In this document: positions 5,832-52,134 of the stretch, in pieces
How the letters are laid out: every line of letters begins with the position of its first letter
How positions within the stretch are numbered: position 1 is the stretch's first letter
NCBI GenBank assembly: GCA_017303995.1
Contig: JAFLBE010000020.1
Span: 1-64,000 of the forward strand
Reading direction: 5' to 3'
Length of the DNA: 64,000 bases
From: Bacteroidota bacterium
Lineage (GTDB): Bacteria > Bacteroidota > JABWAT01
Program-made: the position numbers and the translations under genes
Notes under the pieces: generated by a model
Seen by the model: the letters and a program-made list of their open reading frames with translations, nothing else
Told to the model about the DNA's origin: nothing
Database searches by the model: none

Positions 5832-5841
5832 AACAATTACA

Positions 5842-6331: not shown

Positions 6332-6339
6332 TAATTATC

Positions 6340-26300: not shown

Positions 26301-26970
26301 ACGATGCCGGGGAATTCCATGCCGGAAGAGTACCAACTGCACCTGGCATATTTGCCCTTGTAATTTCCTTGCCGTTCAGCCAGGCAACAAAACCATCATC
26401 ATAATCAGCAAAAAACAAAGCTTCGTTCAATTCTGAGGTATCAGTAACTGTAAATTTGATTCGTAAAAAAACTGAAATACACTTGGCAACTGTAGTAGCA
26501 TCATCATTGTCACCAAAGCCAACTGAAGTCTTACCATTCAGCCAGGATGCATCTGAAAACGCTGGATTACGCCAGGTTTGAGAAATTGCTGCAGACCCAA
26601 TCACATACTTGCAATTATCCCCCCGAATAATAACAGGATTCCAGGCGGCAACAGCAGGAATACGATCTTTCCCTGAAGCATAAATCACTTTTCTTTCGCC
26701 AGGAATCAGACCGAAATCAGGAAATCTCCATTTTGACGGATTTTCGGGATCATCTGAAAGAAACCAGCCATTGAGGTTTATACTTTGCGAACCAGAATTT
26801 TTTAACTCGACCCAATCAGGTGAATTGCCATCACTATCAACAAGTTGTCCGGGATTATCTGAAACAACTTCATTGATCAGAACCGATTGGCCATTTACAG
26901 AAAATGAACCAACCAGACAAACTCCAATCAGGAGATAACGGTATGTTACTCTTAATACTTCATTTTTCAC
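23392..26970 (-). CDS. CotH-kinase-family protein with lamin-tail domains and T9SS tag (paralogue 1)
   Basis: 1192 aa, exported (signal peptide to SVNGQ). In order: lamin-tail domain (~30-100, LINEVVSDNPGQLVDSDGNS); a domain with NGKEI-type sugar-binding look (~120-250); chitobiase/FN3-like domain (~365-430, TRYTLDGSVP); CotH domain (~450-860, with VYLNGKYWGIYFLMEK and the metal motif YDTDFG at ~719); a beta-repeat (FKFVGWKGSS); a second lamin-tail domain (LFNEINYNS); type A sorting domain (NYPNPFNPSTTLQF). CotH domains are secreted protein kinases in spore coats and occur on cellulosome proteins. Here the role may be cell-surface phosphorylation or binding to glycan. Confidence 0.85.
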   Translation of the reverse strand: MKNEVLRVTYRYLLIGVCLVGSFSVNGQSVLINEVVSDNPGQLVDSDGNSPDWVELKNSGSQSINLNGWFLSDDPENPSKWRFPDFGLIPGERKVIYASGKDRIPAVAAWNPVIIRGDNCKYVIGSAAISQTWRNPAFSDASWLNGKTSVGFGDNDDATTVAKCISVFLRIKFTVTDTSELNEALFFADYDDGFVAWLNGKEITRANMPGAVGTLPAWNSPASSIREAVIYTGGKPDVFTNPAIKSALLPGENVLAIEIHNSDANSSDLTIIPYLVLGFSAPQSGLRPVPAVCTLPPVEYHTNFSLNAGGESVLLSAPDSSIVDQVTVPELFSGFSWARIPDGSSTWGLAGRTTPSEINPSSGFIGIGPGTTVSVAGGFFSSPFAVQVTSPNPDYVTRYTLDGSVPVITSPVFPTDLIIKKTAVLKTRTFRTGYFPGPVTTESYFIADVHNLPVVSISVDSNWFFQPDTGIYVMGPNASGGFPYFGANFWLDKEVPVQWEYFDKTGTRVTSYPAGLKIFGMYSRAQNQRSFSLFARSGYGASEFKYPFFDNNPVRTFQSLVLRNSGNDWAYSGIRDHLTSELIGPLEVDRLQSKPVVVYLNGKYWGIYFLMEKTSEHLIANRHQVNKDAIEMIELGSGWGEYHSVLGSVDSWNSFIEWMQNKDMTDPSVSALIKYRMDVQNFMTYQSINIFVANNDWPGNNYKFWRLTSPVTQWKWLVYDTDFGYGLFNSNAWQLNFIEFASTEFGDPFWPNPPISTYLFRKLLENEEFKGMFINTSMDLMNTVFKTGNTLSVLNRISTGISAEIPAHRLRWQSDMQGSWSDQVNSVRNFLTNRNQKMILHLYQLIKKGGTSLVTLSTDSAMGSIRLNSILVTKEKWAGTYFSEIPITISAIPNPGFKFVGWKGSSTELNPVLNVLPGSSFSVTAEFEPVTSENARVLFNEINYNSASGSNTGDWVEFVNPETIDSDISGWRFYDEDDSHLFTIPNGTILPAGGFLVLAEQPDTLLKRFPGIAVISIPLSFGFSGSGELLRLYKPSGELMDSVRYSDSLPWPVEADGTGKTLEKRQPLALSWVAENWKTGSTNGTPGSINSIVDALAENKKTNLPDEFKLTGNYPNPFNPSTTLQFNLPESGLVRLEVFDLTGKSIFSEERKFSVSGKQYWVWNASGFSSGLFFYRMTWKEQNQTGKMILIK

Positions 26971-26982
26971 GATATTTAAACC

Positions 26983-26997
26983 AGATTGCGATATTTG
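26983..26997 (-). promoter_or_regulatory. ATCGCAATC box upstream of the first CotH gene
   Basis: CAAATATCGCAATCT on the - strand, 13-27 bp before the ATG at 26970. The core ATCGCAATC recurs upstream of the genes at 19661, 54871 and 56565 and, with one extra C, 59787. It could be a start-site element or a leader signal. Confidence 0.45.
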
Positions 26998-27022
26998 AAG
27001 TCCCCGGTTTTTCCGGGAACTG

Positions 27023-30000
27023 TTACTTTAACAAGGTCAATTTGCTGACCCGGGCAGATGATCCGGCAGTTAACCGGATAAAATAAATTCCTGAAGGTAA
27101 GGTCACTCCATTTATTGAAACAGAATGAAACCCTTCCGGTTGAACAGATTGGCCAATCAGACTCTGAACTTCCCTTCCAAGAAGATCAAAAATCGAAATT
27201 GAGACAACAGAACGTTCTGGCAAATAATACTTCACAGTTGCTGAAGGATTAAACGGATTTGGATAAGCCGGAAATAGTGTAAGTCCGGATGGCTTTTCAA
27301 GACAAGAGACGACTGATACCAAAAATTCATTTGACCTTCCCGGAGACCCATGCCCCAGACTTGATGCCCAGTTTTCTGCAACTGAATTATCAAGTTTCGG
27401 ATCTTTCAGGGCAAGAGTTGCACCTTTTCCATCCGGTTCCGTTGGCCATGGCGCCTTTTGATTGTATGTCAAGGAGTCAACGATGCGGTTGTCGTTGCTG
27501 AACAACCGTATTTTTTCGCCATTTTTGTCAAGACCAAATGAAAGGATCCCAATCCGGTTCTGAACATCAGGAAAACCTGCATCAAATTTTACAGTATCTC
27601 TTACCAAAACAATGAAACCGCCGGGCGCCAAAATGGTTCCAGCGGGAAAAACTGCCTGATGGTCGTCTTCAGAATCTTTAAATATATATCCGGTAAGATC
27701 GGCAGATTCTGAACCACTGTTTGTGATTTCAACCCAATCTTCAACGGCAAAGGCCGCATCTGAATTGTAATTAATTTCATTGATCACAAGTTGAGGCAAT
27801 TCACCAGTCACTTTTTCAAAAATCGCAGTAAAAGTCATTCCCATTGCCGGATTAACAACCAGAACCGGATTTGACGAATTCAAACTTCCCTGCCATCCAA
27901 CAAATCTGTATCCAGTTTTAGGAATTGCAGTGATGGTAACGGGAACTTCAGGATAGTACAACCCTGACCAGTTTCTTGTTTTAACCTTTAAAATATTTAC
28001 CGTTATTTTACCTGCAACTGTATCAGGATTCTCAATTGAAATGCGAACCGTATCAGAGAGATTAAATCCTTCTTTTAAATACCTGAACATAAAACCTGGG
28101 CGGACATCAAGGAACTGCTCAATTTTTGCGAGATTCCCTTCCCATGATCCACTGATTTCACTCCACCGCTGAATGTGGCGGGGAATTTCAGCACGGATTT
28201 CATCAGCGGAGGCAGTAAGTTCTTTTTTGGAATTTGAAGGCAGATAAACCGAATTCATCCGGTCACAAAAAGTAGTAATAAACTCTTTTTTAAATGATTC
28301 ACTTTCGAGCATTTTTCTAAACAGCCAGGTTGACCACGCAGGGTTTGGACCTTCTTCAACATTATCAGCACGGGCAAAGGCAAGCGTATTGTGATCAGCC
28401 TGAACTTCAGAAAGTAAACTGAATCCGAAATCAGTTCCGTAAACCAACCAGCGCCATTTTGAGGTTGGATTCATTCGGCGCCAGTATTTCACATTATTTC
28501 CAGGCCAGTCCCAATTGGCAGCAAAAATTTCAGCAATATTGTAATCGATGAAATTGCCGACATCAATCTGATTGGTGATGACCTGATAATTTTGTTCAAT
28601 TGATAACGGATTCGCATCGATCCATTCCAGCATATCAGTGTACCCTGAAGAATCGCCAACCGTTGCCCATCCCATTTCTTCAAGAAGCTGAAGATCCTCT
28701 TCAACAACTTGAAAATTATCGAAGAAATAATCTTTATTCGATTTTTCACGAAGGTTATGAATTCCCCAATATTTACCATTGATATAAACAGCAACTTGTT
28801 TATGTGCCTGATAATCCACCCTGAAATCCTTGATCAACCGATTGTTGAATCCGTCACGAAGCATAGTTGATTCCACATCCTGACCAGAATTTCTGAGAAT
28901 CAGTGCTTCATAGGTGTCGGCTTTTTTATCAGAGAAAAAGGGGAAATTGAAAGATGAGTCACCATATCTCGATCGGGTGTAAAGGGCAATGGATTTCTGT
29001 GGAAACGTGCGGGAATACGATCCGTAAATGATAACACCGGTGTTGACACTAACCTGGCGGGTACCAGATTCATCAAAATATTCAAAATGAGCAGGGATTT
29101 CCTTATCCAGCCAGAAATTTGCTCCCCAATATGGAAATTCACCGGGATTGGGTCCGGGAACGTAAATTCCACTGTCAGCACTGAACAACCAGAGAGAATC
29201 TGTTACCAGTGAAACAACCGGGAGATTTCTGGGTTCATTGACAAAATAGGTTTGCGTACTGGTTTTACCTTCAAGGGCACCCGGGAAAAAGGATTTAAAA
29301 CGAAGTGTAGAATTTTGGGAAACCAAAATCGGACCAGAATAAATTTCTGAAGAGCCCGTTGGTATCGACCCATCTTTCGTTAGCCGGATTATTTCCTGGG
29401 GATTGGCTGATGAGACTGAAATGGTTTGGGGAGATGTAAAAAATCCGCCTTTAATATCAATTTTAGGCGTACTTAGCTGAAAGGAGGCTACTTCACCTGC
29501 ATTTTCAAGACCGGGTGTTGGGGTTTTGAAATATGCCCAGGTTCCGTTGCTTTGTTTACCCCAGGAAATATCGGTTGGAACTGTTTTAAAAACTTGCTGA
29601 TCAACCAAAGCCCCGGCCGCATCAAACAAATACACACCATCAGAATCAGAATTCAGTTTAAAATTGGTATGAAGTTCAAAACCAGGAAGGTTTAGATAAA
29701 GAGGTGCACCATTTCCCTCGGGCGGGAATTCTGAAAGGCCTAAAGTAAAATAAGGAATCAAAGTTAGATCATCCATACCATCTTCAGCATTATGAACTTC
29801 AATTGCCAATGTGTTTATGCCAATCTGAAGCCAGTCAGCCGGATTTCTGAAGATATATTTTTCTGGATAGCCATTCTGATACTCAACAGCCTCGACCGAT
29901 TGATCAGCGAACTGATTCCAGGTCACAACCGAACCGGATTCACCCAAATTTGAACGGCAAAGTTCTTTCCCGTTCAGGTAGGCAACAAAACCATCATCGG

Positions 30001-30544
30001 CATCAACATTTAAAACGAAAGAGTTTATTTCGTCCAAAGAACTGAGAATGAATGTTTTTCGGGCAAAAAGACTTACGGCAGGGTTAACGATAGTTGAATC
30101 ATCCCCATCGGCGTAGCCAAATCCCGATTTTCCTGTGTTCCAATTTAAATCAAAAAAATCTTTTGTTTTCCATGAATCAGAAATGAGGGACGATCCATAG
30201 ACCCACTTCAATTCATCACCTTTTGTAACGATGGTTTCCCATTGGGTAACCCACCAGGAAAGATTTTTGTCTGAAGCAAATACAGTAAAGTATGTTTTAG
30301 GATCTAAATAAACTTGCGGGATTATGAATTTGATCAGGGAGGGATCATCAGAAATCCCCATTCCTTTTAAGGAAATAAAGTCATCAGAATTATTGTAAAA
30401 CTCGATCCAATCAACAAAATCGCCATCCTGATCACTCAGAACCGAGGAATTAGCTGGAGAAATTTCATTAATAATGAGAGGTTGGGAAATTGAATTTCCG
30501 AAGCAAAATACCAAAACTAAAAAAAACGCGGTCAGGCTTTTCAT
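27023..30544 (-). CDS. CotH-kinase-family protein with lamin-tail domains and T9SS tag (paralogue 2)
   Basis: 1173 aa from ATG 30544, which begins the signal peptide (KSLTAFFLVLVFCFGNSISQ). Same domain order and near-equal length as the product of 23392-26970: lamin-tail (LIINEISPANSSVLSDQDGD), sugar-binding-like region, FN3-like (EIIRLTKDGSIP), CotH (VYINGKYWGIHNLREK), beta-repeat (YRFVGWQGSL), second lamin-tail (VINEINYNSD) and sorting domain (YPNPFNPSATVKYYLP). The metal motif reads YGTDFG where paralogue 1 has YDTDFG, so the first Asp is lost and kinase activity is doubtful. It lies 52 bp before paralogue 1, with a short hairpin (CCCGG/CCGGG, 27003-27017) in the gap. Tandem duplication followed by divergence is likely. 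Confidence 0.85.
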   Translation of the reverse strand: MKSLTAFFLVLVFCFGNSISQPLIINEISPANSSVLSDQDGDFVDWIEFYNNSDDFISLKGMGISDDPSLIKFIIPQVYLDPKTYFTVFASDKNLSWWVTQWETIVTKGDELKWVYGSSLISDSWKTKDFFDLNWNTGKSGFGYADGDDSTIVNPAVSLFARKTFILSSLDEINSFVLNVDADDGFVAYLNGKELCRSNLGESGSVVTWNQFADQSVEAVEYQNGYPEKYIFRNPADWLQIGINTLAIEVHNAEDGMDDLTLIPYFTLGLSEFPPEGNGAPLYLNLPGFELHTNFKLNSDSDGVYLFDAAGALVDQQVFKTVPTDISWGKQSNGTWAYFKTPTPGLENAGEVASFQLSTPKIDIKGGFFTSPQTISVSSANPQEIIRLTKDGSIPTGSSEIYSGPILVSQNSTLRFKSFFPGALEGKTSTQTYFVNEPRNLPVVSLVTDSLWLFSADSGIYVPGPNPGEFPYWGANFWLDKEIPAHFEYFDESGTRQVSVNTGVIIYGSYSRTFPQKSIALYTRSRYGDSSFNFPFFSDKKADTYEALILRNSGQDVESTMLRDGFNNRLIKDFRVDYQAHKQVAVYINGKYWGIHNLREKSNKDYFFDNFQVVEEDLQLLEEMGWATVGDSSGYTDMLEWIDANPLSIEQNYQVITNQIDVGNFIDYNIAEIFAANWDWPGNNVKYWRRMNPTSKWRWLVYGTDFGFSLLSEVQADHNTLAFARADNVEEGPNPAWSTWLFRKMLESESFKKEFITTFCDRMNSVYLPSNSKKELTASADEIRAEIPRHIQRWSEISGSWEGNLAKIEQFLDVRPGFMFRYLKEGFNLSDTVRISIENPDTVAGKITVNILKVKTRNWSGLYYPEVPVTITAIPKTGYRFVGWQGSLNSSNPVLVVNPAMGMTFTAIFEKVTGELPQLVINEINYNSDAAFAVEDWVEITNSGSESADLTGYIFKDSEDDHQAVFPAGTILAPGGFIVLVRDTVKFDAGFPDVQNRIGILSFGLDKNGEKIRLFSNDNRIVDSLTYNQKAPWPTEPDGKGATLALKDPKLDNSVAENWASSLGHGSPGRSNEFLVSVVSCLEKPSGLTLFPAYPNPFNPSATVKYYLPERSVVSISIFDLLGREVQSLIGQSVQPEGFHSVSINGVTLPSGIYFIRLTAGSSARVSKLTLLK

Positions 30545-30606
30545 AATCATCCATTTTTGTATTTGATTTATATAAGCCATAACCGCGCAAATTTCAATCC
30601 AAGAAC

Positions 30607-38599: not shown

Positions 38600-40816
38600 T
38601 CAGGGCAACAAAGTGAACGAATCTGACAGTGAACCAACCATTACTGTAAATTTACCTGGCTCAACAATGCGTTTGTTTTGCAAACCAATGTAAGAAAAAT
38701 CAGCATCAGTCAGTTTAAAAGTCAGTTCCTTAGATTCACCCGGATTCAACATAACTTTCTGGTAAGATTTCAATTGTTTTACCGGACGTGAAACCTGAGC
38801 AGCATTATCGTTCAAATAGACCAGAACGGCTTCTTTACCAGCAACTTTCCCGGTGTTTTTAACGCTAACTTTTACTTCAAGGCCTTCACCGGCTTTTATT
38901 TCCTTTTTGGAAAGTCTCAAACCAGAAGTTTCATAGGTTGTGTAACTGAGTCCGTGGCCAAAAGTATAAAGCGGATTAATCACCATTCCGTCATAAACTT
39001 CAAGTGGTTTATAATCGTAGGTTGTAAAACCGTTTGTATTTCTTGGATAGCTGAACGGCAATTTTGCATCCGGATTGTAATCACCAAAAAGGATTTCGGT
39101 TAGAGCAATTGCCCCTTCCATTCCCGGGCGCATGGCAACCACAACGGCATTTGATTTTTCAGCAATGGGAGTAACCACTCTTGGGCGTCCTTCAAGAAGA
39201 ACAAGAACAACCGGTTTCCCTGTTTTCAGCATTGCATTTGCCAGATCAAGCTGGGCCTGATCAAGAGTCAGGTTTTCAATATTACCTGGTGTTTCACAAT
39301 AGGCTTTTTCACCCAGACAAAGAACAATCACATCAGTTGAAGCTGCCTGTTTAACAGCTTCGTCTATATTGACGGGATTTGTAAAAGTTGTTCCTTCAAC
39401 GTAGGTCACTTTTCCTTTTGAACCGGCTTTCAAAGCTTCAAGAACAGTCAGTTTTTCCTGCGGATACAGATTTTCCTCATCGCCCTGCCAAGTAACCGTC
39501 CATCCGCCGTTTAAAACCTGAAGCAGGTTGGCAGTCGGGCCGGTAACCAGAATATTTGCTGATTTTGAAAGGGGAAGCAAGTTATTTGAATTTTTTGCAA
39601 GCACGATCGTTTCACGGGCAGCTGCAAGGTTTTTTGCAGTTGCATCTTCATTGGCGAAGAGTTTAATCAGTTCTTTTTTCGGATATGGATCAGCAAGAAG
39701 TCCGCTTTCAATTTTAACTTTCAGAATCCGGCTGACGGCTTCGTCAATTCTGGACATGGGAACTTCGCCATTTTTTACCAGCTTAACCAGGATATCATAG
39801 AAACTAAAATTGTAAGGAACCATGCTCATATCCACGCCGGCCATCACTGCCATTTTCACAGCTTGTTCAGGAGAATCTGCAACTTTATCACGGCTGTACA
39901 ATCTGACGATATCTTCCCAGTCAGAAACAGCAATTCCCTTAAACTGAAGTTCACCACGAAGAATTTCTGTGAGTAAATGGTAGTTGGCATGACCAGGAAC
40001 GCCATCAATTTCACCTGAATTGATCATAACGGTCGGAGAACCTGCTTTTACAGCAGCTTCAAATGACGGCAGGTAAATTTCACGAAGGATTTTTTCACCC
40101 ATCCAGGCTGGTGTACGGTCTTTTCCATTCAGCGGATACCCATAACCGGTATAGTGTTTCATACAAGTCGGGGCAAATTCAGCTTTTGAATAATCATCAC
40201 CCTGGTGTCCGTTGATATAAGCCACACCGTGGGTTGTTGCCACATGAACATCTTCACCATAAGTTTCCCAGAAACGGCTCCAGAGTGGCTGACGGCCGAT
40301 ATCAAGAACCGGATAAAAATTCCAGGTCATCCCGGAAGCTTTCATTTCGCGGGCAGTAATTGCGCCGGCAACTTTACTTAGTTCAGGATTGAATGAAGCC
40401 CCAATGTTAATTGCCTGAGGAAATAAGGTTCCGCCCTGTGTATACGTCGTTCCGTGAATGGCATCAATTCCATAAATGACAGGAATCTGAAGACGTGTTT
40501 TTTTGGAAACATCCTGAACTGCTGTTATAATTTTATTCCAGGTTTCAAGCGATTGCGCCTTGTTATATGGTGTGTTCAGAATCGAACCAACCTGATATTG
40601 AACAATTGCTGTTTCCAGCTTTTTCATATCAACCGGGAAACCGTCATTTTCTGCTTCCGGTTTGGCAATGACATCGAACGTAACCTGAGTCATCTGACCC
40701 ACTTTTTCTTCGAGAGTCATTTTACCGAGAAGAGTTTTTACTTTTTCATCAGAATTTTGTGCATGAACGTTCATTGCAGTTGCCATTAATAAAAGGGTCA
40801 GCGTTAGTTTTGTCAT
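38600..40816 (-). CDS. GH3 beta-glucosidase / exo-beta-glucanase with FN3-like domain
   Basis: 738 aa. Signal peptide to VHAQ (residue 20). GH3 barrel with MKHYTGYG (His221) and nucleophile Asp299 in IAVSDWED. The second domain carries GGWTVTWQGDEEN and LGEKAYCETPG. It ends with a fibronectin-III-like domain (VSVKNTGKVAGKEAVLVYL, residues ~650-738). No sorting tag, so probably periplasmic; it would cut imported beta-glucan oligomers to glucose. It differs from the lipoprotein GH3 at 13214 in having the third domain. AAGGAACC ribosome site before the ATG. Confidence 0.92.
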   Translation of the reverse strand: MTKLTLTLLLMATAMNVHAQNSDEKVKTLLGKMTLEEKVGQMTQVTFDVIAKPEAENDGFPVDMKKLETAIVQYQVGSILNTPYNKAQSLETWNKIITAVQDVSKKTRLQIPVIYGIDAIHGTTYTQGGTLFPQAINIGASFNPELSKVAGAITAREMKASGMTWNFYPVLDIGRQPLWSRFWETYGEDVHVATTHGVAYINGHQGDDYSKAEFAPTCMKHYTGYGYPLNGKDRTPAWMGEKILREIYLPSFEAAVKAGSPTVMINSGEIDGVPGHANYHLLTEILRGELQFKGIAVSDWEDIVRLYSRDKVADSPEQAVKMAVMAGVDMSMVPYNFSFYDILVKLVKNGEVPMSRIDEAVSRILKVKIESGLLADPYPKKELIKLFANEDATAKNLAAARETIVLAKNSNNLLPLSKSANILVTGPTANLLQVLNGGWTVTWQGDEENLYPQEKLTVLEALKAGSKGKVTYVEGTTFTNPVNIDEAVKQAASTDVIVLCLGEKAYCETPGNIENLTLDQAQLDLANAMLKTGKPVVLVLLEGRPRVVTPIAEKSNAVVVAMRPGMEGAIALTEILFGDYNPDAKLPFSYPRNTNGFTTYDYKPLEVYDGMVINPLYTFGHGLSYTTYETSGLRLSKKEIKAGEGLEVKVSVKNTGKVAGKEAVLVYLNDNAAQVSRPVKQLKSYQKVMLNPGESKELTFKLTDADFSYIGLQNKRIVEPGKFTVMVGSLSDSFTLLP

Positions 40817-40837: not shown

Positions 40838-43171
40838 TTATTTTATCAAGATCATTTTACCGGTTTTTGTAAATTCCGGTGTAGAAATCCGGTAGAAATA
40901 GAGTCCGGATCCAAGTGTATTTTCAGTCGATGAAGCGTTGAAATGAGCACGATGTGTTCCCCTGCCCTGAGTCTGGTTCACCAAAGTTGAGACTTCCCTG
41001 CCTGTCAGATCAAAAACCTGCAAAACAACATGAGAAGGTGACCCTAAGGTATATTCAATTGTCGTTTCAGGGTTGAACGGATTTGGGTAAGCGGGTTTCA
41101 AATTGAAATTCAAAAGGTTTTCATCACCTTCAACAGCAGTATTCCAGGGCTGAGTAAGTGAATAGGGATAATATCTTGTCTTCAGAGTGGATGCTACCAA
41201 TTTTGGCGTTGACCGGTTCATTTGATATAACCCCATGGTCTGGAATCCGGTGTTGCCCGCACCAGATCCGTGCCTGTACCAGTCAAACACACACCACCAG
41301 GTTGCAGCCATGACCGAAGTTGTATCTGGAATCTTACCTGATTTCACTCTGCCGGCGTAAGCTTCAAGTGCTCTGAAGGTATTATCAAAAATTTCATTTT
41401 GCTTGGCCTGTTCACTATGGCTTTCTGTATCCCAACGGCCATATTCGGTATTTAATATTGGTTTTGATGGATGGGATTTCTGTGCTGAAGAGATAAACGC
41501 TTTGGTATCGGTTTCGGCTTTTTTTCCATAGAAAACACCAAAATACATCGTCCAACCTGCCACATCAACAACATCCTGACTACTGTCATCAGAACCAGGA
41601 CGGTCAGCTGCTGCTGATTGGGTTACAAGACGGCCATCGGGGTAATTTGCATCGAGGTCGTTGTGAATAGTCTGAAGAAAAATTGTTCTGTTGGTTAATT
41701 CCAAACTTTCATTTTGTCCGCTCCACAGAAAGATTGACGGCCTGTTGAAATCTCTGAAAATCATTTCCCGCCACATTTGATGGGCAATTTTCCTTCTTTC
41801 ATTCTGAATGATAAAGTTTTCAGCCCTGTCGAATTGCCAAACCGGAATTTCTTCAACAATAGCCAACCCGATTCGGTCTGCAGCCTGATATACAAACGGA
41901 TGATTTGGGTAATGTGAAGTCCTCACCATTGTTATATTCATCGATTTGATCAGTTCAAAATCAGACCAGGTAATTGAGGGTGGAACTGACCGACCATAGC
42001 TGGGATGATCTTCATGGCGTGCAACTGCCGGGAAAAAAGTAACCACTCCGTTAAGAAGCAATTTATTGCCTGAAGTGACAACCTTCCGAATACCAAACTG
42101 AGTATAAAATTCATCGGCAACATTCCCATCCTGAGTGAGTGTCACCTTCAAAATGTAAAGGGAAGGTGATTTGGGAACCCATAGTTTTGGATTGGGTATC
42201 GTAAGTGTTTTTAAATCTGCCTGAAGGGAATCGCCGGCAGAAAAAGAAACCGGAAACGTGGTTTCGCCAAGAAGTGTAACCTGTTCACCGATGAGATCAC
42301 CTGCAAAAGCTGACAACCGGTTGGCAGTTGTTACTGAAGCAGAATAGGCGGTAACTGAAGCAGTGTAAGTCCCGCTTGCATGATCTTTCGAACCGGTCAC
42401 CAGTTTCAAAGAAAATGTTCCGTCAAGCGATTGCGGAACAACATCTGCCCTTATAATTCTGACTTTCGGAACAAATTCCAACTGTACATCGTGAATAATG
42501 CCCGTATAATTGAACCAGTCAACTTTACTGTAAGGTACAATATCATTTCGGGTTCCCCAGGCCGGATTATCAACCCGAACGGCAATTTTATTTTCAGAAC
42601 CCATTATCAGAAATTGGGAAATATCAAAAGCAAAAGGCGTATACCCACCTTCATGATATCCAACATAATTCCCGTTTATCCAGATATCACCAACATAATT
42701 GACTGCAAAAAATTTCAGAATTGCACTTCGGGTCTTCAAGGAATCATCTACAAAAAAGGACCGACGATACCAAACGCCGTCTTCATAATATTCAGGAACA
42801 ATTTCATTGCCATAAAGTGTATTTTCAACACCTGGAAGAACTTTTTCTTCCCAGGATGAATCGTCATATCCAGACTGAAAACGACCATCTGATTCTGATT
42901 CAAGTGCAGTAATGGCCTCTGGAGTTCTTTTTACCAAGGTTAGCACATCACTGGCTTTTACCCTTTGCTTTTTCCAGGCTCCGTTTAAGGATATTAGCGG
43001 CCGGTTTTGGGAATCAAAAGTTGGAACAGCAATTCCGTTCTGAACCGGAACGGTAAGGCCATTTACTGTTTGGAGTGAAAAGGTAGCCTGAAGGGTAGCT
43101 TCCTGCGCAAACGTTTGAAATGCGACTAGTGCAGACCCCAGCAAAAAGATGAGTTGTGCGAATCTATTCAT
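40838..43171 (-). CDS. GH2-family glycosidase with T9SS tag
   Basis: 777 aa from ATG 43171 (signal peptide MNRFAQLIFLLGSALVAFQTFAQ); a frame back to 43243 would overlap the upstream gene. Sugar-binding domain at ~100-235 (DGVWYRRSFFVDD, VNYVGDIWINGNYVGYHEGGY-type motif), immunoglobulin-like domain ~240-365, then the barrel with acid/base Glu488 in LWSGQNES and nucleophile Glu576 in LNTEYGRW. The C-terminus is a sorting domain (AYPNPFNPETTIEY, ending KMILIK). GH2 includes beta-galactosidase, beta-mannosidase and beta-glucuronidase; which activity applies cannot be read from the motifs. It lies 14 bp after the lichenase gene. Confidence 0.85.
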   Translation of the reverse strand: MNRFAQLIFLLGSALVAFQTFAQEATLQATFSLQTVNGLTVPVQNGIAVPTFDSQNRPLISLNGAWKKQRVKASDVLTLVKRTPEAITALESESDGRFQSGYDDSSWEEKVLPGVENTLYGNEIVPEYYEDGVWYRRSFFVDDSLKTRSAILKFFAVNYVGDIWINGNYVGYHEGGYTPFAFDISQFLIMGSENKIAVRVDNPAWGTRNDIVPYSKVDWFNYTGIIHDVQLEFVPKVRIIRADVVPQSLDGTFSLKLVTGSKDHASGTYTASVTAYSASVTTANRLSAFAGDLIGEQVTLLGETTFPVSFSAGDSLQADLKTLTIPNPKLWVPKSPSLYILKVTLTQDGNVADEFYTQFGIRKVVTSGNKLLLNGVVTFFPAVARHEDHPSYGRSVPPSITWSDFELIKSMNITMVRTSHYPNHPFVYQAADRIGLAIVEEIPVWQFDRAENFIIQNERRKIAHQMWREMIFRDFNRPSIFLWSGQNESLELTNRTIFLQTIHNDLDANYPDGRLVTQSAAADRPGSDDSSQDVVDVAGWTMYFGVFYGKKAETDTKAFISSAQKSHPSKPILNTEYGRWDTESHSEQAKQNEIFDNTFRALEAYAGRVKSGKIPDTTSVMAATWWCVFDWYRHGSGAGNTGFQTMGLYQMNRSTPKLVASTLKTRYYPYSLTQPWNTAVEGDENLLNFNLKPAYPNPFNPETTIEYTLGSPSHVVLQVFDLTGREVSTLVNQTQGRGTHRAHFNASSTENTLGSGLYFYRISTPEFTKTGKMILIK

Positions 43172-43185
43172 GGCAGATCCTGTTG

Positions 43186-45015
43186 TTATTTTAAATATAC
43201 GACGGGAATAACCAGCGACTGGTCTCCTGAAGAAATCCGGCAAAAGTAAGTTCCAGAAGCTACTTGGTTGCCTGTTTGATCAGTTCCAGACCAGATAATG
43301 GTATGTTCACTTCCAGACCCAAACGTCGAAAAACCTGAAGTAATCTGTTGACCAAGTGTATCATAAATATGATAAGCGGCGGAAGTAACCCGGGGGGAAA
43401 AAAACTGAAAGGTAGTTGAGCCATTAAATGGGTTTGGATAATTTCTGATCAGTTTCATCTGCCCGGGTTGTTCAATTGCACCGGTCTCAACATCAGTTAT
43501 ATCACCCAGATAATCCACCCGTATTCCAGATAAAATCGGGTTCCCTACTTGTGATGAAAAGTGAATATCAAGAATGCCATCGGTAACTTCAGCCGGACCA
43601 AAACTGACATCATAGGCGCTCCAGTCACCGGCTTTAGCGAATACATCAATGTCCTTTTTCTGTAGTGCGGAATGTTCAACAGTAATATCCATAACCCTTT
43701 TTCCGGCAACAGAATAATACTTTTCTGCAAACATAAGAATAACTCTGTACTTACCAGGTGGAACCCTGACCTGATACATTGCCACATAGTCGCGGTCAAA
43801 CAAATAAACAGAATCGAGATCTGTTCCTTTAATTGCACCTGAGAAGGTAAAAAACCTGCCATCAGATCCGCCATAATCGGAAGTAAATGTAAAAGTTTTA
43901 TCCGGCTGATACTGTAAGGTTTTCTTTGCCGAACCTGCGTTGATATACAAGGGGAAAACTGGTTTTTTAATAACGGTCACCGTCATTTGGGACGTTGGCA
44001 TCGTGTTGGGTGATGTAAAAAGGTCAACCTGACTTACGGCATAAATTTTATAGGTTTTTAACGGATCTGGTTTGGAAACTGACAACTGAAAAACCGCAGG
44101 GTCTTTGGTAGCCGAAACTGACTTAACTGTAAGACCTGGTATTTGGTAACCAGAGGTGGAAGTCGCTTTAAAATTTCCAACAGGTTCACTAAACCGAACG
44201 GTAAGGGTTGAATCCATCAGAATAGCCCCGGTAAGGGAGGGAGGCTGAACATCCCGATAACCAGTATTGGTTGCATCAGTAAGACAAAGAATTAACTTTC
44301 CGTTTTTAAAAACAGCATTGGCTGGTATAAAGTCACAGTTATTACCAATAAAGGTATGACTGGCCATTTCCCATCGGTTTGTGTCAAATTCGGTGAGAGA
44401 ATCAGTCCATTCTGGTGTAAAATTATTTCCGTCACCAAATGTTCCAGTTCCCGGGGTATAGGCAGAGTAACTTACCCAGTCATAATAAGTTAAAGCCGGA
44501 AGGCTTTTCAGTTCGAAATTACCAACCCAATCAACATAGTCCGGATTCCACGTATTCATCATTATTTTCTGTGGATGAATAAGAGTTTTTATATGATCAC
44601 CGGTTTGTTTTCTTATAAGAATGCCATCAATAAACCAGCTTACATAGTCGGGAGTCCATTCAAAGGCGTAGGTATGATAATCCTGGGAAGGATCAAAATC
44701 GGTCCAGACATGGCTCACATGGTTCGTCTGGTTCGGGGTAATGGTGTTGACCTGAACATCATTCCGGTACCGGCCTAAAATCTCAATGTCGATTTCATTC
44801 CATTTACCAGATGCCCATGGATTTTCAGGTGTTCCGTCAAAGTAGGTAAAAAACGTTGACAGAACACCTTCATTTGGGGTAGATTTCATTCTGACTTCAA
44901 AACGGCCGTACAGATAGGCCGCTTTTGTCCGGTACTCAGCACCTTTGTAGGGTTTTGCTGCGAAAACTGAATGAACAGCGAGGAACATAAGAATCACAGC
45001 AAAAACCCTGTGCAT
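43186..45015 (-). CDS. Circularly permuted GH16 lichenase with malectin-like module and T9SS tag
   Basis: 609 aa. After a signal peptide (to FAAK) the protein enters at once into the middle of the GH16 fold (GAEYRTKAAYLYGRFEVRM, 25-43). Catalytic EIDIE is at 74-78 (Glu74, Asp76, Glu78). The segment that begins ordinary lichenases (DTNRW, then NGKLILCLTDA) follows at ~200-250, after YYDWVSY. That order is the natural circular permutation known from the Fibrobacter succinogenes 1,3-1,4-beta-glucanase. Then come a beta-sandwich (~255-345), a malectin-like carbohydrate-binding domain (~350-500: YINAGSAKKTLQY, YRVILMFAEKYYS) and a sorting domain (NYPNPFNGSTTFQF). It probably cuts mixed-linkage beta-glucan outside the cell. 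Confidence 0.9.
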   Translation of the reverse strand: MHRVFAVILMFLAVHSVFAAKPYKGAEYRTKAAYLYGRFEVRMKSTPNEGVLSTFFTYFDGTPENPWASGKWNEIDIEILGRYRNDVQVNTITPNQTNHVSHVWTDFDPSQDYHTYAFEWTPDYVSWFIDGILIRKQTGDHIKTLIHPQKIMMNTWNPDYVDWVGNFELKSLPALTYYDWVSYSAYTPGTGTFGDGNNFTPEWTDSLTEFDTNRWEMASHTFIGNNCDFIPANAVFKNGKLILCLTDATNTGYRDVQPPSLTGAILMDSTLTVRFSEPVGNFKATSTSGYQIPGLTVKSVSATKDPAVFQLSVSKPDPLKTYKIYAVSQVDLFTSPNTMPTSQMTVTVIKKPVFPLYINAGSAKKTLQYQPDKTFTFTSDYGGSDGRFFTFSGAIKGTDLDSVYLFDRDYVAMYQVRVPPGKYRVILMFAEKYYSVAGKRVMDITVEHSALQKKDIDVFAKAGDWSAYDVSFGPAEVTDGILDIHFSSQVGNPILSGIRVDYLGDITDVETGAIEQPGQMKLIRNYPNPFNGSTTFQFFSPRVTSAAYHIYDTLGQQITSGFSTFGSGSEHTIIWSGTDQTGNQVASGTYFCRISSGDQSLVIPVVYLK

Positions 45016-45029: not shown

Positions 45030-46055
45030 TCAGAAAATAAGACCTAATGAGAATTTCTGGGTGTTTTTCAACCGGCCGAAATCCATGTAGGAATAATCAA
45101 TTGACACATTAAACACACCATATATAGCTTGCTTAACACCACCACCAACAGTAAAACCTCTTTCAGAATCCTGCTGAAACATTTCATTGTATCCGGCACG
45201 GAAGCTAAGGAAATCACCATAAACATATTCACCACCCACATTCACACTTTCGTAATTATCTGAGGGGTGAGATGCTTCAGCAGAAACCAATAGTTTATTG
45301 AGATCATCCTTAATGGCAAGGTAAGACAAACCAACTTTGAAGTTAACAGGTAAATGAAACTTGTCCGTTTTATAGTAACCGGGAGCGTCACCTGTTGTTC
45401 CAGAATTTTTGGGATCCTGATCATGGGCAAGAAAAAGAGCATCGCCCGTTAACTGCATTTGTGTCCCAAGGTTAAAGATTCCGGCACCAAGCGTAATTCC
45501 CTCAAATGGAGTATCATACAAGACACCAAGATCAGCAGCAAACCCCATCGCACTGGTGTTATAGACTGATTGATAGACAACCTTTGGTGTTACGCCTATT
45601 GAAAAAGTGCTTGTAAGAGCAATTGCGTAAGTTAATGACACAGAGACATCTTTCACACTGAAAATTTCACCCGTTCCATTCGGTTCTGAAACAGTAGTTT
45701 TTTCCATATCCTCAATGTCAGAAGAGGTGTATGAAAGGGCAATACTTCCGTAATCACCCAAATTCTGTGTCACAACGAAAAAGTTGTAATTGATGTCAGC
45801 GATCCATTGTGTATGATCAAACATCATTTGAGTTCCCTTTAACCTTGTAATACCGGCTGGATTCCAATAAGTGGCAGAAGGATCATCTGCAATAGCTATG
45901 AAAGCTGATCCCATAGCAAGGGCTCTTGCACCCATGCCCAGATGAAGGAACTGCCCGGCGGTAGTTCCCTTTTTTGATACATTTGAAACATACTGCTGTG
46001 CCTGCAAGGAAAAACACAGAGCCAGCAGAATCGATAAAATGATAGTTTTTTTCAT
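45030..46055 (-). CDS. PorV/PorQ-type outer-membrane protein (UPF0164-like)
   Basis: 341 aa. Signal peptide to LQAQ. The N-terminal region GQFLHLGMGARALAMGSAFIAIADDPSATYWNPAGI is the signature of the PorV family; the rest is strand-rich to the end FSLGLIF, a phenylalanine-ending barrel. PorV carries cargo from the T9SS pore to the sortase in Bacteroidetes. A copy encoded between a large T9SS-type protein and tagged glycosidases may be dedicated to those cargoes. Ribosome site AAGGAG precedes the ATG; 13 bp separate it from the 1137-aa gene. Confidence 0.85.
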   Translation of the reverse strand: MKKTIILSILLALCFSLQAQQYVSNVSKKGTTAGQFLHLGMGARALAMGSAFIAIADDPSATYWNPAGITRLKGTQMMFDHTQWIADINYNFFVVTQNLGDYGSIALSYTSSDIEDMEKTTVSEPNGTGEIFSVKDVSVSLTYAIALTSTFSIGVTPKVVYQSVYNTSAMGFAADLGVLYDTPFEGITLGAGIFNLGTQMQLTGDALFLAHDQDPKNSGTTGDAPGYYKTDKFHLPVNFKVGLSYLAIKDDLNKLLVSAEASHPSDNYESVNVGGEYVYGDFLSFRAGYNEMFQQDSERGFTVGGGVKQAIYGVFNVSIDYSYMDFGRLKNTQKFSLGLIF

Positions 46056-46068
46056 TCTTTTAAACTCC

Positions 46069-49000
46069 TTACTTGATCAGGGCAAATTTGCCGATTTGTT
46101 CACCAACACCTGGTGCATCAACGTGATAGATATATAACCCATAAGCCACATCAATACCATCTTCACTTAGCAAATTCCAGGTAAGGGCACCAGTGGCCAG
46201 TGACTCAGATTTATACAGGGTTTTAACCAAAGCTCCTGAGAGCGAATAAATTCTAACCGTGCAAGTGCTTGGCAGGTTGATAAAATCAATTTTTCTTTCA
46301 CCCCGTCCTGTAACATTATATTGAGCAGGTTCCCAGGAGGCAGTAGAGATGTAAGGGTTAGGAACGACCCGAATTGAATTCATTTGTTTTTTTGCTGCCG
46401 CCTTGTTGAGCGATTCTGCCTTGGTTGTGAAAGTGAATGAATCGCCTTTCACAAACTTTTTCTCAACACGAATTCTGAATTTATCACCTGCCCTTGGCCT
46501 GGTTTTCGATCCATCACTGGGCAAACCATATTGAAGCATCACCGGCCATCTTTCAGAAGTTTCATCTGCTTCTACCGAGGTTGCCTTTTCAACAATAATA
46601 ATTTTGGTAGTTCCGTCAGGAATAAGATTTACAGAATCTCTGTATGCAGTTGGCAGCCAGATATTAAAATCAACATATTTTCCGCTGGTGATATTTTTTA
46701 TTTTAAAATTCACCGGTCGTTTCTGGAAGAAGTGATCAGTTTTATTTTCCTCTTTGAATGATGTGTCCACCATTGAGTCAAAGAATTCAATCTCATAATC
46801 TCCACCAAAATATTTGTAATAAGGGTTCGGTGTTGACTTTCCTTTAATATAATAATAGTAAAGCGGTCCGAACGAAACGGGCGGTACTGGTGTCTGATAG
46901 GGTTGAAGCGTAGGCAGTTTCGATGCATCGCCTGAAACCCATGTTGATTGTTCTTCAAGAACGGCCGTTTTTCGGGAATTCTTTAATTGAACAGACACGC
47001 CGTCAAAAACATCCGTGGCCTTTTCATTGATATCTGTCCCGATTTGATCAGACTTTATCGTTGTCAGCGTATCAGTATCATTTCTGATGACAATGGCACC
47101 TGACGTTTCATAGAACGGAAAGGTACCTGTTGTATCAAATACGACCGTGTATTTTACATCATCCCTTATTTTCCCAGGATCTACTGCAATAATATCCATT
47201 GTACCTGTGCCCTGATCGGGTTTGGCATCCAACGTAAAGGAAGCAGGGATATAACCCAACGAGGGTGCGTTAGGGGTAACAATTGCACAGTTCTGGTCAA
47301 CAAAGGTGATGACGCCCGAGTTTGCCCTTTTTATGGTCTTCGGGCTTTCAGTAGGTTGGATTCTGAATGCGGCAGTGTCAGAAGAAACCCCCTGATCATA
47401 AGAAACCAACGCGTAATAATAGGTGACTCCATTCGTTACATCTTCATCGATGTAGGCGTGACTCAAGCCGGTTTCATCTCCCCGGTAGTAGGATGCTCCA
47501 AGAATACCAACTGGGTCAGGCCCTTCGATGCCATCAACAATATCCCATTTTGCAATTGGCTTATAATATTGGCCAACGCCTTTTGAATTGGTAATCGTTT
47601 TAACATCGGCGAATTCTGGTTCGGTGCTTCTGTAAAGGGCATACCCTTCAAAGTCTTTTTTAGGTCCGTTGGCCGGGTTGTTGCCTTCATAACCAAGTAT
47701 CGGGTCTCTCGATTCTTCAGCCCTTCGATCCCAGCTCAGAAACACTTTTTTATCTCCTGCACGTGCTGTCAAAATTGGTGTAAGCGGCGGTTTGGTAAAA
47801 TTGTAACCGGCATTATAAATAATCTGAACCGTCTTCTTATTGAAGACAAGATCTTCCCTGTCTTCTCCGAATAAGAGAGCCATTGAGAAACGTTCACGTC
47901 CATATCCATCCGTATTGATGGCACCTCTGAGAAGAAATGGTCCAGACCCAAACAAAATCTGAATATTCTTTCTTTGAATAGAAGTATCAAATTTAGCAGA
48001 CTTCATCCGATCCCAAATGACCTCATCATTCCGTGGCCAGATATCCCGTACAGTTTTTCCTGTAAGTTCCTCGATGACTACAGAAGTAAGACCGATCTGG
48101 TCAGATTCATCTTTATCAAGCTTACCGTAGTTTGGTTCACCTTGATTCGGACGTCCATTTCCTTCACCGTTATCGGGCACGTGGGTTTTAAATGCTTTCG
48201 AGACCGAATCCCAGGGTTCATCGAATGCACCCACACCATCTTCTCCCACATCATCAAGAAGAGGTTCAGCACTAAAGGTTTCGGAACCTGGTGCAGAATA
48301 AATTGTCCATGCTCCGTCACTGTTCAAGTCAAGAAAGGGTTGCCAGTCAGCATCTTCATCTGCCTTGAAATGAGTTTTTCCATTGGTGACGGTTGTTTCG
48401 GTTGCTTCGTCCGGATCGTCACGTCTTTCATCTACAAATCCATCTTCGTCATTGTCTCTTCCATCATTTGAATTTCCTGGTGATTCCAGATAAGCGTATC
48501 CATATACACCAAGAACAACATCGGTCCGACCCGGAATCTGATTATCAAAATCATAACCCCAGGTTAGGTCAAGCTCAGAATCATACCCGGCATTATCATC
48601 TCCGTTATCTGTATCTCCACCTAATCCGGTATCAGTATAGAACCCAAAGAAAGTTGAATCGTAGTCATGATCTCCCAGATTTGAAATATCATAATGCCAG
48701 AAAATAATATCTTCAGCAAGGGGTTGTGACCATTGGAAGGCTCTGGTTTCAACACGAAGCCCAAGTCCTTTCCTGATTTCAGGGTTGTACCATTGGGTTC
48801 CGTTTGCATAATCATAGGTTCCGTCAGTTTTCTTCGGAGCATCCTGAATAATCGGAAAGAAAAAATTCGGAAATTTTGTCCACTCAGCATCCTTTGAGTC
48901 ATCCATGACAAAGAAGGTTTCAACATCAGCGTTAAAAATGCCACGACCAAAATACCCATACCAGTTTCCATTATAAGTTGATGGAAGATTTAAGGCTGCA

Positions 49001-49482
49001 GGCCAGACATCCGGCCAGCTTGTGCGCTCAATGCTTGAAGCAGGAAGGGTCGTCTGTATATTTGAATAGCCAGGAACCGGATTCCAACCCCAGGCCTCAT
49101 TGACAAGATTAGCTGGAACAGTTGTTGTAATATCCATTTCTTCCCTGTAAAAGGTTTCAACCGGATACATGTACCGTTCTCTGTCTGTACGAAGCGACTT
49201 GGCTCTGGCGGTAACAATCATACAAATGCCATCCACATAGTCAATACCACTTCCCTTTGGCCATTCACCTGAAGGCGAAAACGGCCATTGCGCAATTTCA
49301 CCCGTGTTGTAGAACAGGGTTTTAACCAGGTTTCCGTCCATTATACCCTCCTTACGGTGGATGTAACTTCCCATCTGGTCATTGCGGTACCGGGCCGCTT
49401 CCGGGTCGACAGCTTGCGAAAAAACTGCTTCAGTCTGGAAAGTAGTCAGAATGAAGACTATTATATAAATATATTTTAACAT
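46069..49482 (-). CDS. Large secreted protein of unknown function with T9SS-type C-terminus
   Basis: 1137 aa. Signal peptide to VFSQA. The N-terminal ~330 residues contain many Trp, Asp and Tyr residues and Asp/Asn-rich loops (DTGLGGDTDNGDDNAGYDSE, DGRDNDEDGFVDERRDDPDE) that look like calcium sites. A fibronectin-III-like module with PILTARAGDKKVFLSWDRRAEE is near residue 570. The C-terminus (VVPNPYISTASWEP, then GLYIYHVDAPG, ending KFALIK) is an FlgD-like sorting domain. I do not recognise the family. Its place directly behind the TonB-dependent receptor and before the PorV-like gene, 15 and 13 bp apart, suggests a shared surface complex. Confidence 0.75.
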   Translation of the reverse strand: MLKYIYIIVFILTTFQTEAVFSQAVDPEAARYRNDQMGSYIHRKEGIMDGNLVKTLFYNTGEIAQWPFSPSGEWPKGSGIDYVDGICMIVTARAKSLRTDRERYMYPVETFYREEMDITTTVPANLVNEAWGWNPVPGYSNIQTTLPASSIERTSWPDVWPAALNLPSTYNGNWYGYFGRGIFNADVETFFVMDDSKDAEWTKFPNFFFPIIQDAPKKTDGTYDYANGTQWYNPEIRKGLGLRVETRAFQWSQPLAEDIIFWHYDISNLGDHDYDSTFFGFYTDTGLGGDTDNGDDNAGYDSELDLTWGYDFDNQIPGRTDVVLGVYGYAYLESPGNSNDGRDNDEDGFVDERRDDPDEATETTVTNGKTHFKADEDADWQPFLDLNSDGAWTIYSAPGSETFSAEPLLDDVGEDGVGAFDEPWDSVSKAFKTHVPDNGEGNGRPNQGEPNYGKLDKDESDQIGLTSVVIEELTGKTVRDIWPRNDEVIWDRMKSAKFDTSIQRKNIQILFGSGPFLLRGAINTDGYGRERFSMALLFGEDREDLVFNKKTVQIIYNAGYNFTKPPLTPILTARAGDKKVFLSWDRRAEESRDPILGYEGNNPANGPKKDFEGYALYRSTEPEFADVKTITNSKGVGQYYKPIAKWDIVDGIEGPDPVGILGASYYRGDETGLSHAYIDEDVTNGVTYYYALVSYDQGVSSDTAAFRIQPTESPKTIKRANSGVITFVDQNCAIVTPNAPSLGYIPASFTLDAKPDQGTGTMDIIAVDPGKIRDDVKYTVVFDTTGTFPFYETSGAIVIRNDTDTLTTIKSDQIGTDINEKATDVFDGVSVQLKNSRKTAVLEEQSTWVSGDASKLPTLQPYQTPVPPVSFGPLYYYYIKGKSTPNPYYKYFGGDYEIEFFDSMVDTSFKEENKTDHFFQKRPVNFKIKNITSGKYVDFNIWLPTAYRDSVNLIPDGTTKIIIVEKATSVEADETSERWPVMLQYGLPSDGSKTRPRAGDKFRIRVEKKFVKGDSFTFTTKAESLNKAAAKKQMNSIRVVPNPYISTASWEPAQYNVTGRGERKIDFINLPSTCTVRIYSLSGALVKTLYKSESLATGALTWNLLSEDGIDVAYGLYIYHVDAPGVGEQIGKFALIK

Positions 49483-49497
49483 GTGTTTACTCCACGC

Positions 49498-52134
49498 TTA
49501 CAAGGAAAAATTCAAGCCAAGTTTAATGGTTCTGGGTCCGGAATACCGGGTTGGATCATTGATATAATCCTTAATAGTGTTATAGCCTGCAACAGTATAA
49601 TCGGTTGCTATTTGCCTATTTGCTTCAATATCTTCAGTCGCACGGCCTGTTGAAGCAAAAACTCCATATTCATTTTTGATATTAAACACATTGTACACAA
49701 GGGCAAATAAATTGACCCGATATCCCGAAATTTCGATTCCTTTATCATATCTGAAGTCGAAAGAATAGGTTGAAGGTTTTGTACCTCCGTTTGATACCGT
49801 CATACCACCTGTATGGCGAACGTCTTCGGTATAAGGGTTGCCTGAGCCATAGCCAAAAATGAATGACAACATGCCAAATGTTTCATCATTAACTATTGCA
49901 GATAAATTAAAGGTATGCCTTTGATCCCAGTTAAGAGGAGTCACGTGTTTTTCGATAAATCGCGCATTATCGCGTGCCGCCTGAAATACCTGATCAGGGT
50001 TTGATGAGTTACCTTCTGCAATCTGATAAGTATAATCTGATTTCAGTTTCAGCATTTTTGCCAACCGGTAATTTAATGACACAATTAATCCCTTAACATT
50101 TCCATAATCACGGTTGATGTATCTTGAGTAATATAGGCCATCATAAGTTCTGAGAATTTCACCACCAATCAGGTTTCTGATGTCCCTGTAGTAAATAGTT
50201 GTTTCAAAACCCGCATCATCACTAATCATTTGCTGAAGTCCAAATTCATAGCTTGTGGTGCTCTCTGGTTTCAGATTTGCATTCCCGACCTGAGTATTGA
50301 CACCGTTTCCTCCGTTAATGTTGTACTCATGGTTCAAATAAGTCTGTTGAAAGGACGGTGGTTGAAAGAAGTGTCCGTAAGAGAAGTGCAATACGCCTCT
50401 GTCAGAAATTGGAAAAGAAACACCCAAACGCGGTGAGAGCTGCGATGATGGTTTCGAATCAACCCAACCACCTGGATACAATGGGTTTATTTGTGGATTA
50501 TTAAGATCAGCCGGCATTCTGGATCGTGGGTCAAAGAATTCATACCGAAGACCTGCATTGATAATCATCATGTCATATTCCATTTTGTCCTGCAGATAGA
50601 TAGCAAACTCCATCGGATTTTCATGATACTGCTGGTTTCCACCAAAATGAAGGGGCGCATAATTGATAACAAAAGCACTATCACTACTAGAACTAGCCTG
50701 AATGGACTTACCATGATCGAATAATTCATGAAACCTGACTTCAGCACCCATGCCCAGTTTATGTTTATCAGTTAACTGGGAAGTCAATTGCCATTTTATG
50801 AGATATGAATTGGTATATCTTTCATATCTTGAACCGTCATTACCACCATATCTAAAGGCATAACTTCCAAAAGAAGCCCCCACATTCGGATCAATATACC
50901 GGGAGTCATATTCATCCTCATATAAATACCCTTTATATCGGTGTATATTGGCTCCCAGTGAAAGTTCATGGAAGGTAGAACTTGTTGGAAAATGGGTAAT
51001 CTTCAGCGTATTAACATAATTTGTTCGGTAATGGGTCAGACGACCATCGGGAGAGTATGACCAGTCATGGCTGTAATATTGATTTTCATTGTCATCGTAA
51101 AACAAGCTATATGAGACCTTAAATGACTGCCCAGACCAGGTTATTTTCGGGCTCAATGACAGTTTTTTTGATGTCTGCATCGGCATCCACTTTTTATCAC
51201 CCGAATTGGCCCTGAAGCTTTTAATTGAATCGGTATCAGCAATATTATAAATTCTGCGGCCCCAGAAGTATCCCTGATCATCATAATATCTTCCGGTAAT
51301 AAAGAAAGAAACATCACTGATAAAGGGAATTGGGCCTGAAACTGTGGCTGAATAGTCTTTTGTAGCGACATTAAAAGGCTTGTCAAGATTTCTAAAAATC
51401 TTTGTGTCTGATGAATAATAATTACCCAATGTTACAGAGTAATTTGACTCATAATTTTCAAGAGAACCGTCTTGCGTAACAATGTTCACCATGCCAGACA
51501 TTGCACGGCCATATTCGGCATTAAAAGCACCTGAAATTACTTCAAGTTGTCTGATGGAAGCATTTTCAACCCCAACAGCAACTGAGTTATTATAAACGTC
51601 ATTTACTGGCACACCATCTACCAGGTACCCAACTTCATTGCTTCGACCGCCGCGGAAGTGGCCGTCAACAACACCAGCCTGCATATTGACAACCTGCGAC
51701 AGGTTTTCAACCGGCATTGCTTTGATATCTGAGGCGGTTACGGTTACAGACGTACTTGTAAGATCCTTCTGTACCAATGGAGCTTCTGCTTCCACCACGA
51801 TTTCTTCTGAAAGGATATCTTCGGTCTGCATTTTTATATCCTGACGCGTAGTCAGGTTAATTTTAACAACAACTTTTGATACAGTAACTCTCTGATAACC
51901 AATTGAGCTGATTACCAGTTTGTACTCACCGGGGGGTACATTATAAATTGAATATTTTCCATCCAGATCTGTTGCAGCTCCGTAATGGGTTCCGAGAACA
52001 ATAACATTGGCACCAATAACAGCATCTCCGGTTTTACTGTCGGTGACAACTCCGGTAATTTTCCCTGTATTTGAGGCATTGACCAAACCTGCCAGGGCAA
52101 AAATGCAGGTAAACAGCAATAGGATTTTTTTCAT
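49498..52134 (-). CDS. TonB-dependent outer-membrane receptor with CarboxypepD_reg domain
   Basis: 878 aa. Signal peptide, then a carboxypeptidase-regulatory-like domain (~22-105: GKITGVVTDSKTGDAVIGANV, then GVPPGEYKLVISSIGYQ-type), TonB-box region, plug (~115-230: NLSQVVNMQAGVV, GYLVDGVPVNDVY, EVISGAFNAEYGRAMSGMVN) and a 22-strand-type barrel ending TIKLGLNFSL. It would import oligosaccharides into the periplasm with TonB energy. It is shorter than SusC proteins (usually ~1000 aa), and no SusD gene is next to it. The gene before it encodes a CBM9-type binding protein, which may take the SusD role. Confidence 0.9.
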   Translation of the reverse strand: MKKILLLFTCIFALAGLVNASNTGKITGVVTDSKTGDAVIGANVIVLGTHYGAATDLDGKYSIYNVPPGEYKLVISSIGYQRVTVSKVVVKINLTTRQDIKMQTEDILSEEIVVEAEAPLVQKDLTSTSVTVTASDIKAMPVENLSQVVNMQAGVVDGHFRGGRSNEVGYLVDGVPVNDVYNNSVAVGVENASIRQLEVISGAFNAEYGRAMSGMVNIVTQDGSLENYESNYSVTLGNYYSSDTKIFRNLDKPFNVATKDYSATVSGPIPFISDVSFFITGRYYDDQGYFWGRRIYNIADTDSIKSFRANSGDKKWMPMQTSKKLSLSPKITWSGQSFKVSYSLFYDDNENQYYSHDWSYSPDGRLTHYRTNYVNTLKITHFPTSSTFHELSLGANIHRYKGYLYEDEYDSRYIDPNVGASFGSYAFRYGGNDGSRYERYTNSYLIKWQLTSQLTDKHKLGMGAEVRFHELFDHGKSIQASSSSDSAFVINYAPLHFGGNQQYHENPMEFAIYLQDKMEYDMMIINAGLRYEFFDPRSRMPADLNNPQINPLYPGGWVDSKPSSQLSPRLGVSFPISDRGVLHFSYGHFFQPPSFQQTYLNHEYNINGGNGVNTQVGNANLKPESTTSYEFGLQQMISDDAGFETTIYYRDIRNLIGGEILRTYDGLYYSRYINRDYGNVKGLIVSLNYRLAKMLKLKSDYTYQIAEGNSSNPDQVFQAARDNARFIEKHVTPLNWDQRHTFNLSAIVNDETFGMLSFIFGYGSGNPYTEDVRHTGGMTVSNGGTKPSTYSFDFRYDKGIEISGYRVNLFALVYNVFNIKNEYGVFASTGRATEDIEANRQIATDYTVAGYNTIKDYINDPTRYSGPRTIKLGLNFSL

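Follow-up and report, generated by a model that had tools for sequence, protein, structure and literature searches.

The gene at positions 43186..45015 (minus strand) of the window, that is, the 64,000-nucleotide stretch analysed here, most probably encodes a secreted, cell-surface licheninase-type (GH16_21-like) endo-beta-glucanase whose catalytic domain is naturally circularly permuted by a single event common with the lichenase of Fibrobacter; our estimate of the probability of this reading is about 0.8. The Fibrobacter lichenase, so far regarded as a single case, is a standard example of an enzyme with natural circular permutation. Computational analysis of the protein and its homologues shows that the permutation is old and widespread, and not an oddity of Fibrobacter.

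Domain layout and evidence for the permutation

The ORF starts with ATG and encodes 609 amino acids followed by a stop codon; all features given below lie on the minus strand. A signal peptide (residues ~1-19, 44959..45015; hydrophobic helix 2-19 in the AlphaFold2 model) precedes a mature chain that opens with AKPYKGAEYRT. According to the alignment of 67 homologues, the catalytic domain begins shortly after the signal peptide, and the match to the Fibrobacter enzyme starts at residue 19, which bears out the earlier suggestion that the permuted domain stands directly at the mature N-terminus. The first segment (residues 20-186, 44458..44958; Pfam GH16 match at residues 18-162), colinear with the Fibrobacter lichenase, is the catalytic part, C-terminal in ordinary GH16 proteins; it carries WNEIDIE at residues 72-78, including the catalytic EIDIE of the ExDxE type (E74, D76, E78; 44782..44796). 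The junction linker (residues 187-198, TPGTGTFGDGNN, 44422..44457), with the YTPGxG pattern common with Fibrobacter, connects the former C- and N-termini of the GH16 domain and is followed by the second segment (residues 199-251, 44263..44421), delineated by sequence matches, AlphaFold2 and Foldseek. In ordinary GH16 proteins, this part stands at the N-terminus; here it is represented by FTPEWTDSLTEFDTNRW...NGKLILCLTD at residues 199-247, so that the EIDIE half indeed comes first and the usual N-terminal half last.

Three domains follow the permuted one: an Ig-like (SbsA/Big_5-type) domain (residues ~256-352, 43960..44250), a beta-sandwich in the model, with PF13205 above threshold in five out of 67 homologues; a malectin domain (residues 358-498, 43522..43944; PF11721, E 1.5e-14); and a T9SS type A C-terminal sorting domain (residues 526-609, 43189..43440; PF18962, Pfam match at 526-600, and TIGR04183). 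The malectin module and the T9SS tag claimed by the sequence-only reading are therefore both present. As is characteristic of T9SS cargo, the C-terminal sorting domain is accompanied by PorU and SprA encoded in the genome.

In a phmmer search against the PDB, the Fibrobacter succinogenes lichenase is colinear with the protein over residues 19-251 (3axd, E 1.3e-46; 1mve, E 1.9e-45), whereas canonical lichenases align only over residues ~20-185. When the two halves of the domain were swapped in silico and the PDB search was repeated, the Fibrobacter match broke into two domains, the Clostridium (C. thermocellum) and Bacillus enzymes matched continuously over 9-225, and most canonical enzymes scored higher, e.g., 3wvj rose from 116.5 to 134.7 bits. 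This outcome is beyond chance and constitutes a clean test of permutation; the permuted order also accounts for the shortness of the Pfam GH16 match.

The AlphaFold2 model, built with 67 homologues, has a mean pLDDT of 92.8; residues 199-250 reach ~94-98 and form strands 199-205, 215-217, 227-229, 234-237, and 240-247, so that, as modelled, the two segments build a complete jelly roll. Superposition on known structures, given here by the Foldseek figures, places the Fibrobacter enzyme at the top (1zm1_B, with a TM of 0.94 by target and an rmsd of 1.8 over 238 columns); the engineered permutants of the Bacillus lichenase, 1cpm and 1cpn, also match (TM 0.90 and 0.89 over 229-230 columns), while for canonical lichenases only ~161 columns were structurally aligned. 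Taken together with the 1zm1 match, the confident strands in residues ~200-250, the region on whose place in the jelly roll the sequence-only reading had staked its claim, uphold a natural circular permutation of GH16 of the Fibrobacter kind.

The Fibrobacter succinogenes 1,3-1,4-beta-D-glucanase (1mve, 1zm1, 3axd) has the same permuted order, cut site, YTPG linker, and ExDxE motif, with 36-38% identity over the whole domain. It differs in having W203 in place of H220. In the present protein, the permuted domain is followed by the Ig-like, malectin, and T9SS domains; the C-terminal tail of the Fibrobacter enzyme comprises repeats and a basic region. The TonB/PorV-Q/GH3 operon around the present gene is a further difference. 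Canonical GH16_21 licheninases (Bacillus 1gbg/1mac, Clostridium 3wvj) share the fold, the catalytic residues, the Phe at -1, and the +1-loop Trp, but their order is unpermuted, and order-dependent structural alignment is limited accordingly. The 1cpm and 1cpn proteins are closely similar in order but are laboratory constructs.

Active site and putative substrate

GH16_21 enzymes are characterized by a Phe at subsite -1 and by a +1-loop Trp that is strictly conserved (PMC6827312). The present protein has the following residues of the subfamily: the ExDxE motif is formed by E74-I-D-I-E78 on a regular strand, the Phe platform at -1 (Phe-92) is matched by F56, and the +1-loop Trp and the aromatic residues Tyr-94 and Trp-103 are matched by W163, Y58, and W72. 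All 67 homologues retain E74, D76, E78, F56, Y58, W156, and W163, and 65 of them retain W72. The NCBIfam model BglS matches the permuted protein at E 7.6e-46, under the cut-off of the model. The two other GH16 genes in the genome carry the ExDxxE motif of laminarinases, and GH16 proteins adjoining several permuted homologues likewise are of the ExDxxE laminarinase type. Since the permuted protein has the ExDxE motif and the GH16_21 residues, and laminarinase-type GH16 proteins are separate, endohydrolysis of mixed-linkage beta-glucan appears to be the best-supported function.

The main reservation concerns H220, present in 65 out of 67 homologues, which aligns with W203 of Fibrobacter and lies at or next to Tyr-24 of the Bacillus enzyme, the alignment of the Bacillus loop being uncertain; the residue two positions further is Phe or Trp (F222 here). 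Due to this replacement, contacts in the minus subsites may differ. There is, hence, a minor but real chance that the same permuted fold acts on another substrate, such as laminarin, a bacterial exopolysaccharide, or another beta-glucan: besides the replacement, many hosts belong, judging by record titles, to subsurface and sediment lineages, for which a cereal-type glucan is not obvious, and malectin is named for binding of di-glucose, which implies no specificity for mixed-linkage glucan. The ExDxE motif with the GH16_21 aromatic platform, and the allocation of laminarinase-type GH16 domains to separate genes both in this genome and beside several homologues, argue against it.

If mixed-linkage beta-1,3-1,4-glucan is indeed the substrate, the following scheme may be suggested. 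The domain, its chain opened within the loop that precedes the GAE strand and rejoined via the short YTPGxG linker, would fold into an enzyme equivalent to an ordinary lichenase, and E74 as the nucleophile, D76 as the helper, and E78 as the acid/base would carry out retaining hydrolysis of the glucan. The malectin domain probably binds the glucan, the T9SS tag would export the enzyme and anchor it to the cell, the nearby GH3 glycosidase would complete the breakdown of the products, and transport proteins would import the sugars.

Distribution among homologues and origin of the permutation

Ten out of 60 genomes searched as relatives encode the full-length permuted domain, and 35 out of 394 genomes from an even sample of the phylum have a match over nearly the whole permuted model. 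Each of the four genomes from the class of the source organism has the permuted form, as do 34 out of 245 genomes of another class (that of genome G018) that is Ignavibacteria-like by its sequences, and four out of 150 genomes of a further family of Bacteroidota. A GTDB contig scan yielded at least 80 loci, all permuted among the matches listed, from Ignavibacteria, other records titled Bacteroidetes, Calditrichaeota, KSB1, Neomarinimicrobiota, and a few others; the listed loci are the closer relatives, and phyla outside the source phylum are unevenly sampled. In total, at least 101 distinct permuted proteins were extracted, and it is this number, about a hundred enzymes across several related phyla, that makes the permutation old and widespread. 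The view of the Fibrobacter lichenase as the lone natural parallel, taken by the sequence-only reading, was thus too narrow.

The combination of GH16 and malectin is seen in 67 out of 67 complete homologues, and the T9SS tail, in 66. Other architectures include forms in which a long N-terminal extension precedes the permuted domain, with a T9SS tail and without malectin (L145, L146, L149), a short form with the T9SS tail only (L140), and, in L141, a form carrying a CBM48-like domain. Two genomes (G266 and G360) have, in addition to the main form, second, diverged permuted GH16-malectin paralogues (L147, L148). At L145, permuted (5087-7024) and canonical lichenase-type (13448-14482) GH16 genes lie ~6 kb apart on one contig, which makes it a good place to seek the steps of the permutation. 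Segment orders in the ORFs of 193 loci were 147 AB, 21 BA, and 37 A-only, and the duplication intermediate in which the second segment flanks the first on both sides (BAB) was found in none of them. The search for viral carriage gave three distant partial matches only. Proteins with an N-terminal glycosyltransferase family 25 domain and a C-terminal canonical GH16 domain (L150, L151, L153; Pfam on L151) are encoded in three Bacteroidota genomes of different families, and GH16 genes related to this type reside on Rhizorhabdus and Aliarcobacter plasmids.

In a tree of the sequences un-permuted in silico, all permuted proteins, including the Fibrobacter enzyme, form one clade (100/98). The clade is recovered from the first segment, with the distant outgroup and the long-branch L141 left out (100/98), and again when the linker columns were removed and the relatives L223 and L224 added so as to split up that branch, also without the distant outgroup (98/92, 99% of bootstrap trees). 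One tree dissents: with the first segment and the distant outgroup (GH16_3 laminarinases), L141 joined the outgroup and the clade was broken, due to the attraction of this long branch, the program having warned of meeting long branches. The trees were rooted on canonical enzymes, under the assumption that, as elsewhere in GH16, the canonical order came first. In the 1mac row, residues 39 on were confirmed, and the first 38 are provisional. AU tests against placement of Fibrobacter and L140 with two canonical groups gave p 0.044 and 0.027, modest values that are indicative only, since the groups were chosen after the tree was seen, and that, like the trees, involve one Fibrobacter sequence. Within the permuted clade, the Fibrobacter enzyme pairs with L140, a protein from another family of Bacteroidota (100/99), and lies inside relative to the group of L141, L223, and L224, while the source protein clusters with sequences of its own class and of Ignavibacteria.

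As all permuted sequences form one clade, a single ancient permutation is favoured, and the Fibrobacter lichenase most likely stems from the same event, judging by these trees. Independent permutation in the two lineages, i.e., convergence at a favourable loop, seems quite unlikely: the site is permissive, as the engineered Bacillus permutants (1cpm), whose order is closely similar, fold well and agree with the model, and identity to the Fibrobacter enzyme is only 38%, but convergence would have to reproduce both the cut site ahead of the GAE strand and the YTPGxG linker common to Fibrobacter and the permuted homologues, and it disagrees with the clade seen without the linker columns and on the first segment alone, as well as with the AU tests. 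Still less credible is direct horizontal transfer between Fibrobacter and the source lineage, suggested by the presence of the permuted form in both, given that the closest relative of the Fibrobacter enzyme among the sequences compared is another Bacteroidota protein and the source protein stays with its own class and Ignavibacteria. Hence, of the hints in the sequence-only reading, shared ancestry is supported by the single clade and the linker, and a special link of Fibrobacter to the source lineage is not supported. Finally, a truncated GH16 domain joined to an unrelated C-terminal stretch that merely resembles the missing part, which the partial Pfam coverage might suggest, is refuted computationally by the un-permutation test, the model with Foldseek, and conservation in ~100 proteins, and its probability is negligible.

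Gene neighbourhood and significance

The neighbouring genes are encoded on the same strand. Directly upstream is a gene for a PorV/PorQ-family outer-membrane protein (45030..46055), whose homologue is found near the permuted GH16 gene in at least 55 out of 75 named loci, followed by a gene for a 1137-aa protein with a T9SS-like C-terminus and no Pfam family (46069..49482; homologue nearby in at least 46 loci), the structure prediction for which was too poor for use (pLDDT 55.8), and, by domain match, a TonB-dependent receptor with a CarboxypepD_reg domain (49498..52134). On the other side lie a GH2 glycosidase with a T9SS tag (40838..43174), for which the ATG at 43174 was used instead of the listed TTG start overlapping the GH16 gene, and a GH3 glycosidase of the beta-glucosidase type (38600..40816; homologue in at least 30 loci). 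The homologue of another GH3 gene of the window occurs near permuted GH16 genes in at least 19 of the 75 loci. All these counts are lower bounds, as the flanks were only ~4 kb. In most cases, the permuted gene is found in this operon with the large T9SS-type protein, the PorV/Q protein, and GH3, which is conserved across phyla.

The triad of a TonB receptor, a large protein of the 1137-aa family with a T9SS-like C-terminus, and a PorV/PorQ protein is found at least four times in the genome, at 45030-52134 and on contigs C62, C77, and C40 (L214, L216, L218), and could be a SusD-like alternative in the uptake of polysaccharides. Elsewhere in the window, two adjacent CotH-kinase proteins (1192 and 1185 aa; 23392-30580) with lamin-tail domains and T9SS tags are apparently tandem paralogues, and a 519-aa GH3 ORF with PA14 (18102-19661), covering only 1-57 of 200 positions of the GH3 C-terminal domain, may be truncated or frameshifted.

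A more far-reaching history, which we hold with somewhat better than even confidence, is that a single ancient permutation occurred in the Fibrobacterota-Chlorobi-Bacteroidota superphylum, gave the principal form of lichenase in Ignavibacteria-like Bacteroidota, Calditrichota, KSB1, and Neomarinimicrobiota, and was kept in an operon with the TonB receptor, the large T9SS-type protein, PorV-Q, and GH3, the Fibrobacter enzyme being a derived, probably transferred offshoot.

The paper on GH16 subfamilies makes no mention of permutation. No report of natural GH16 permutants beyond Fibrobacter was found in the literature searched, which covers the smaller part of subscription journals, and the wide distribution can thus be called new only provisionally. 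Some one hundred natural permutants, together with unpermuted relatives in the same phylum and, once, on the same contig, form a real data set that allows one to ask how and when the permutation was fixed, and whether stability or specificity changed. It is also due to the permutation that Pfam-type models recognize just two thirds of such enzymes.
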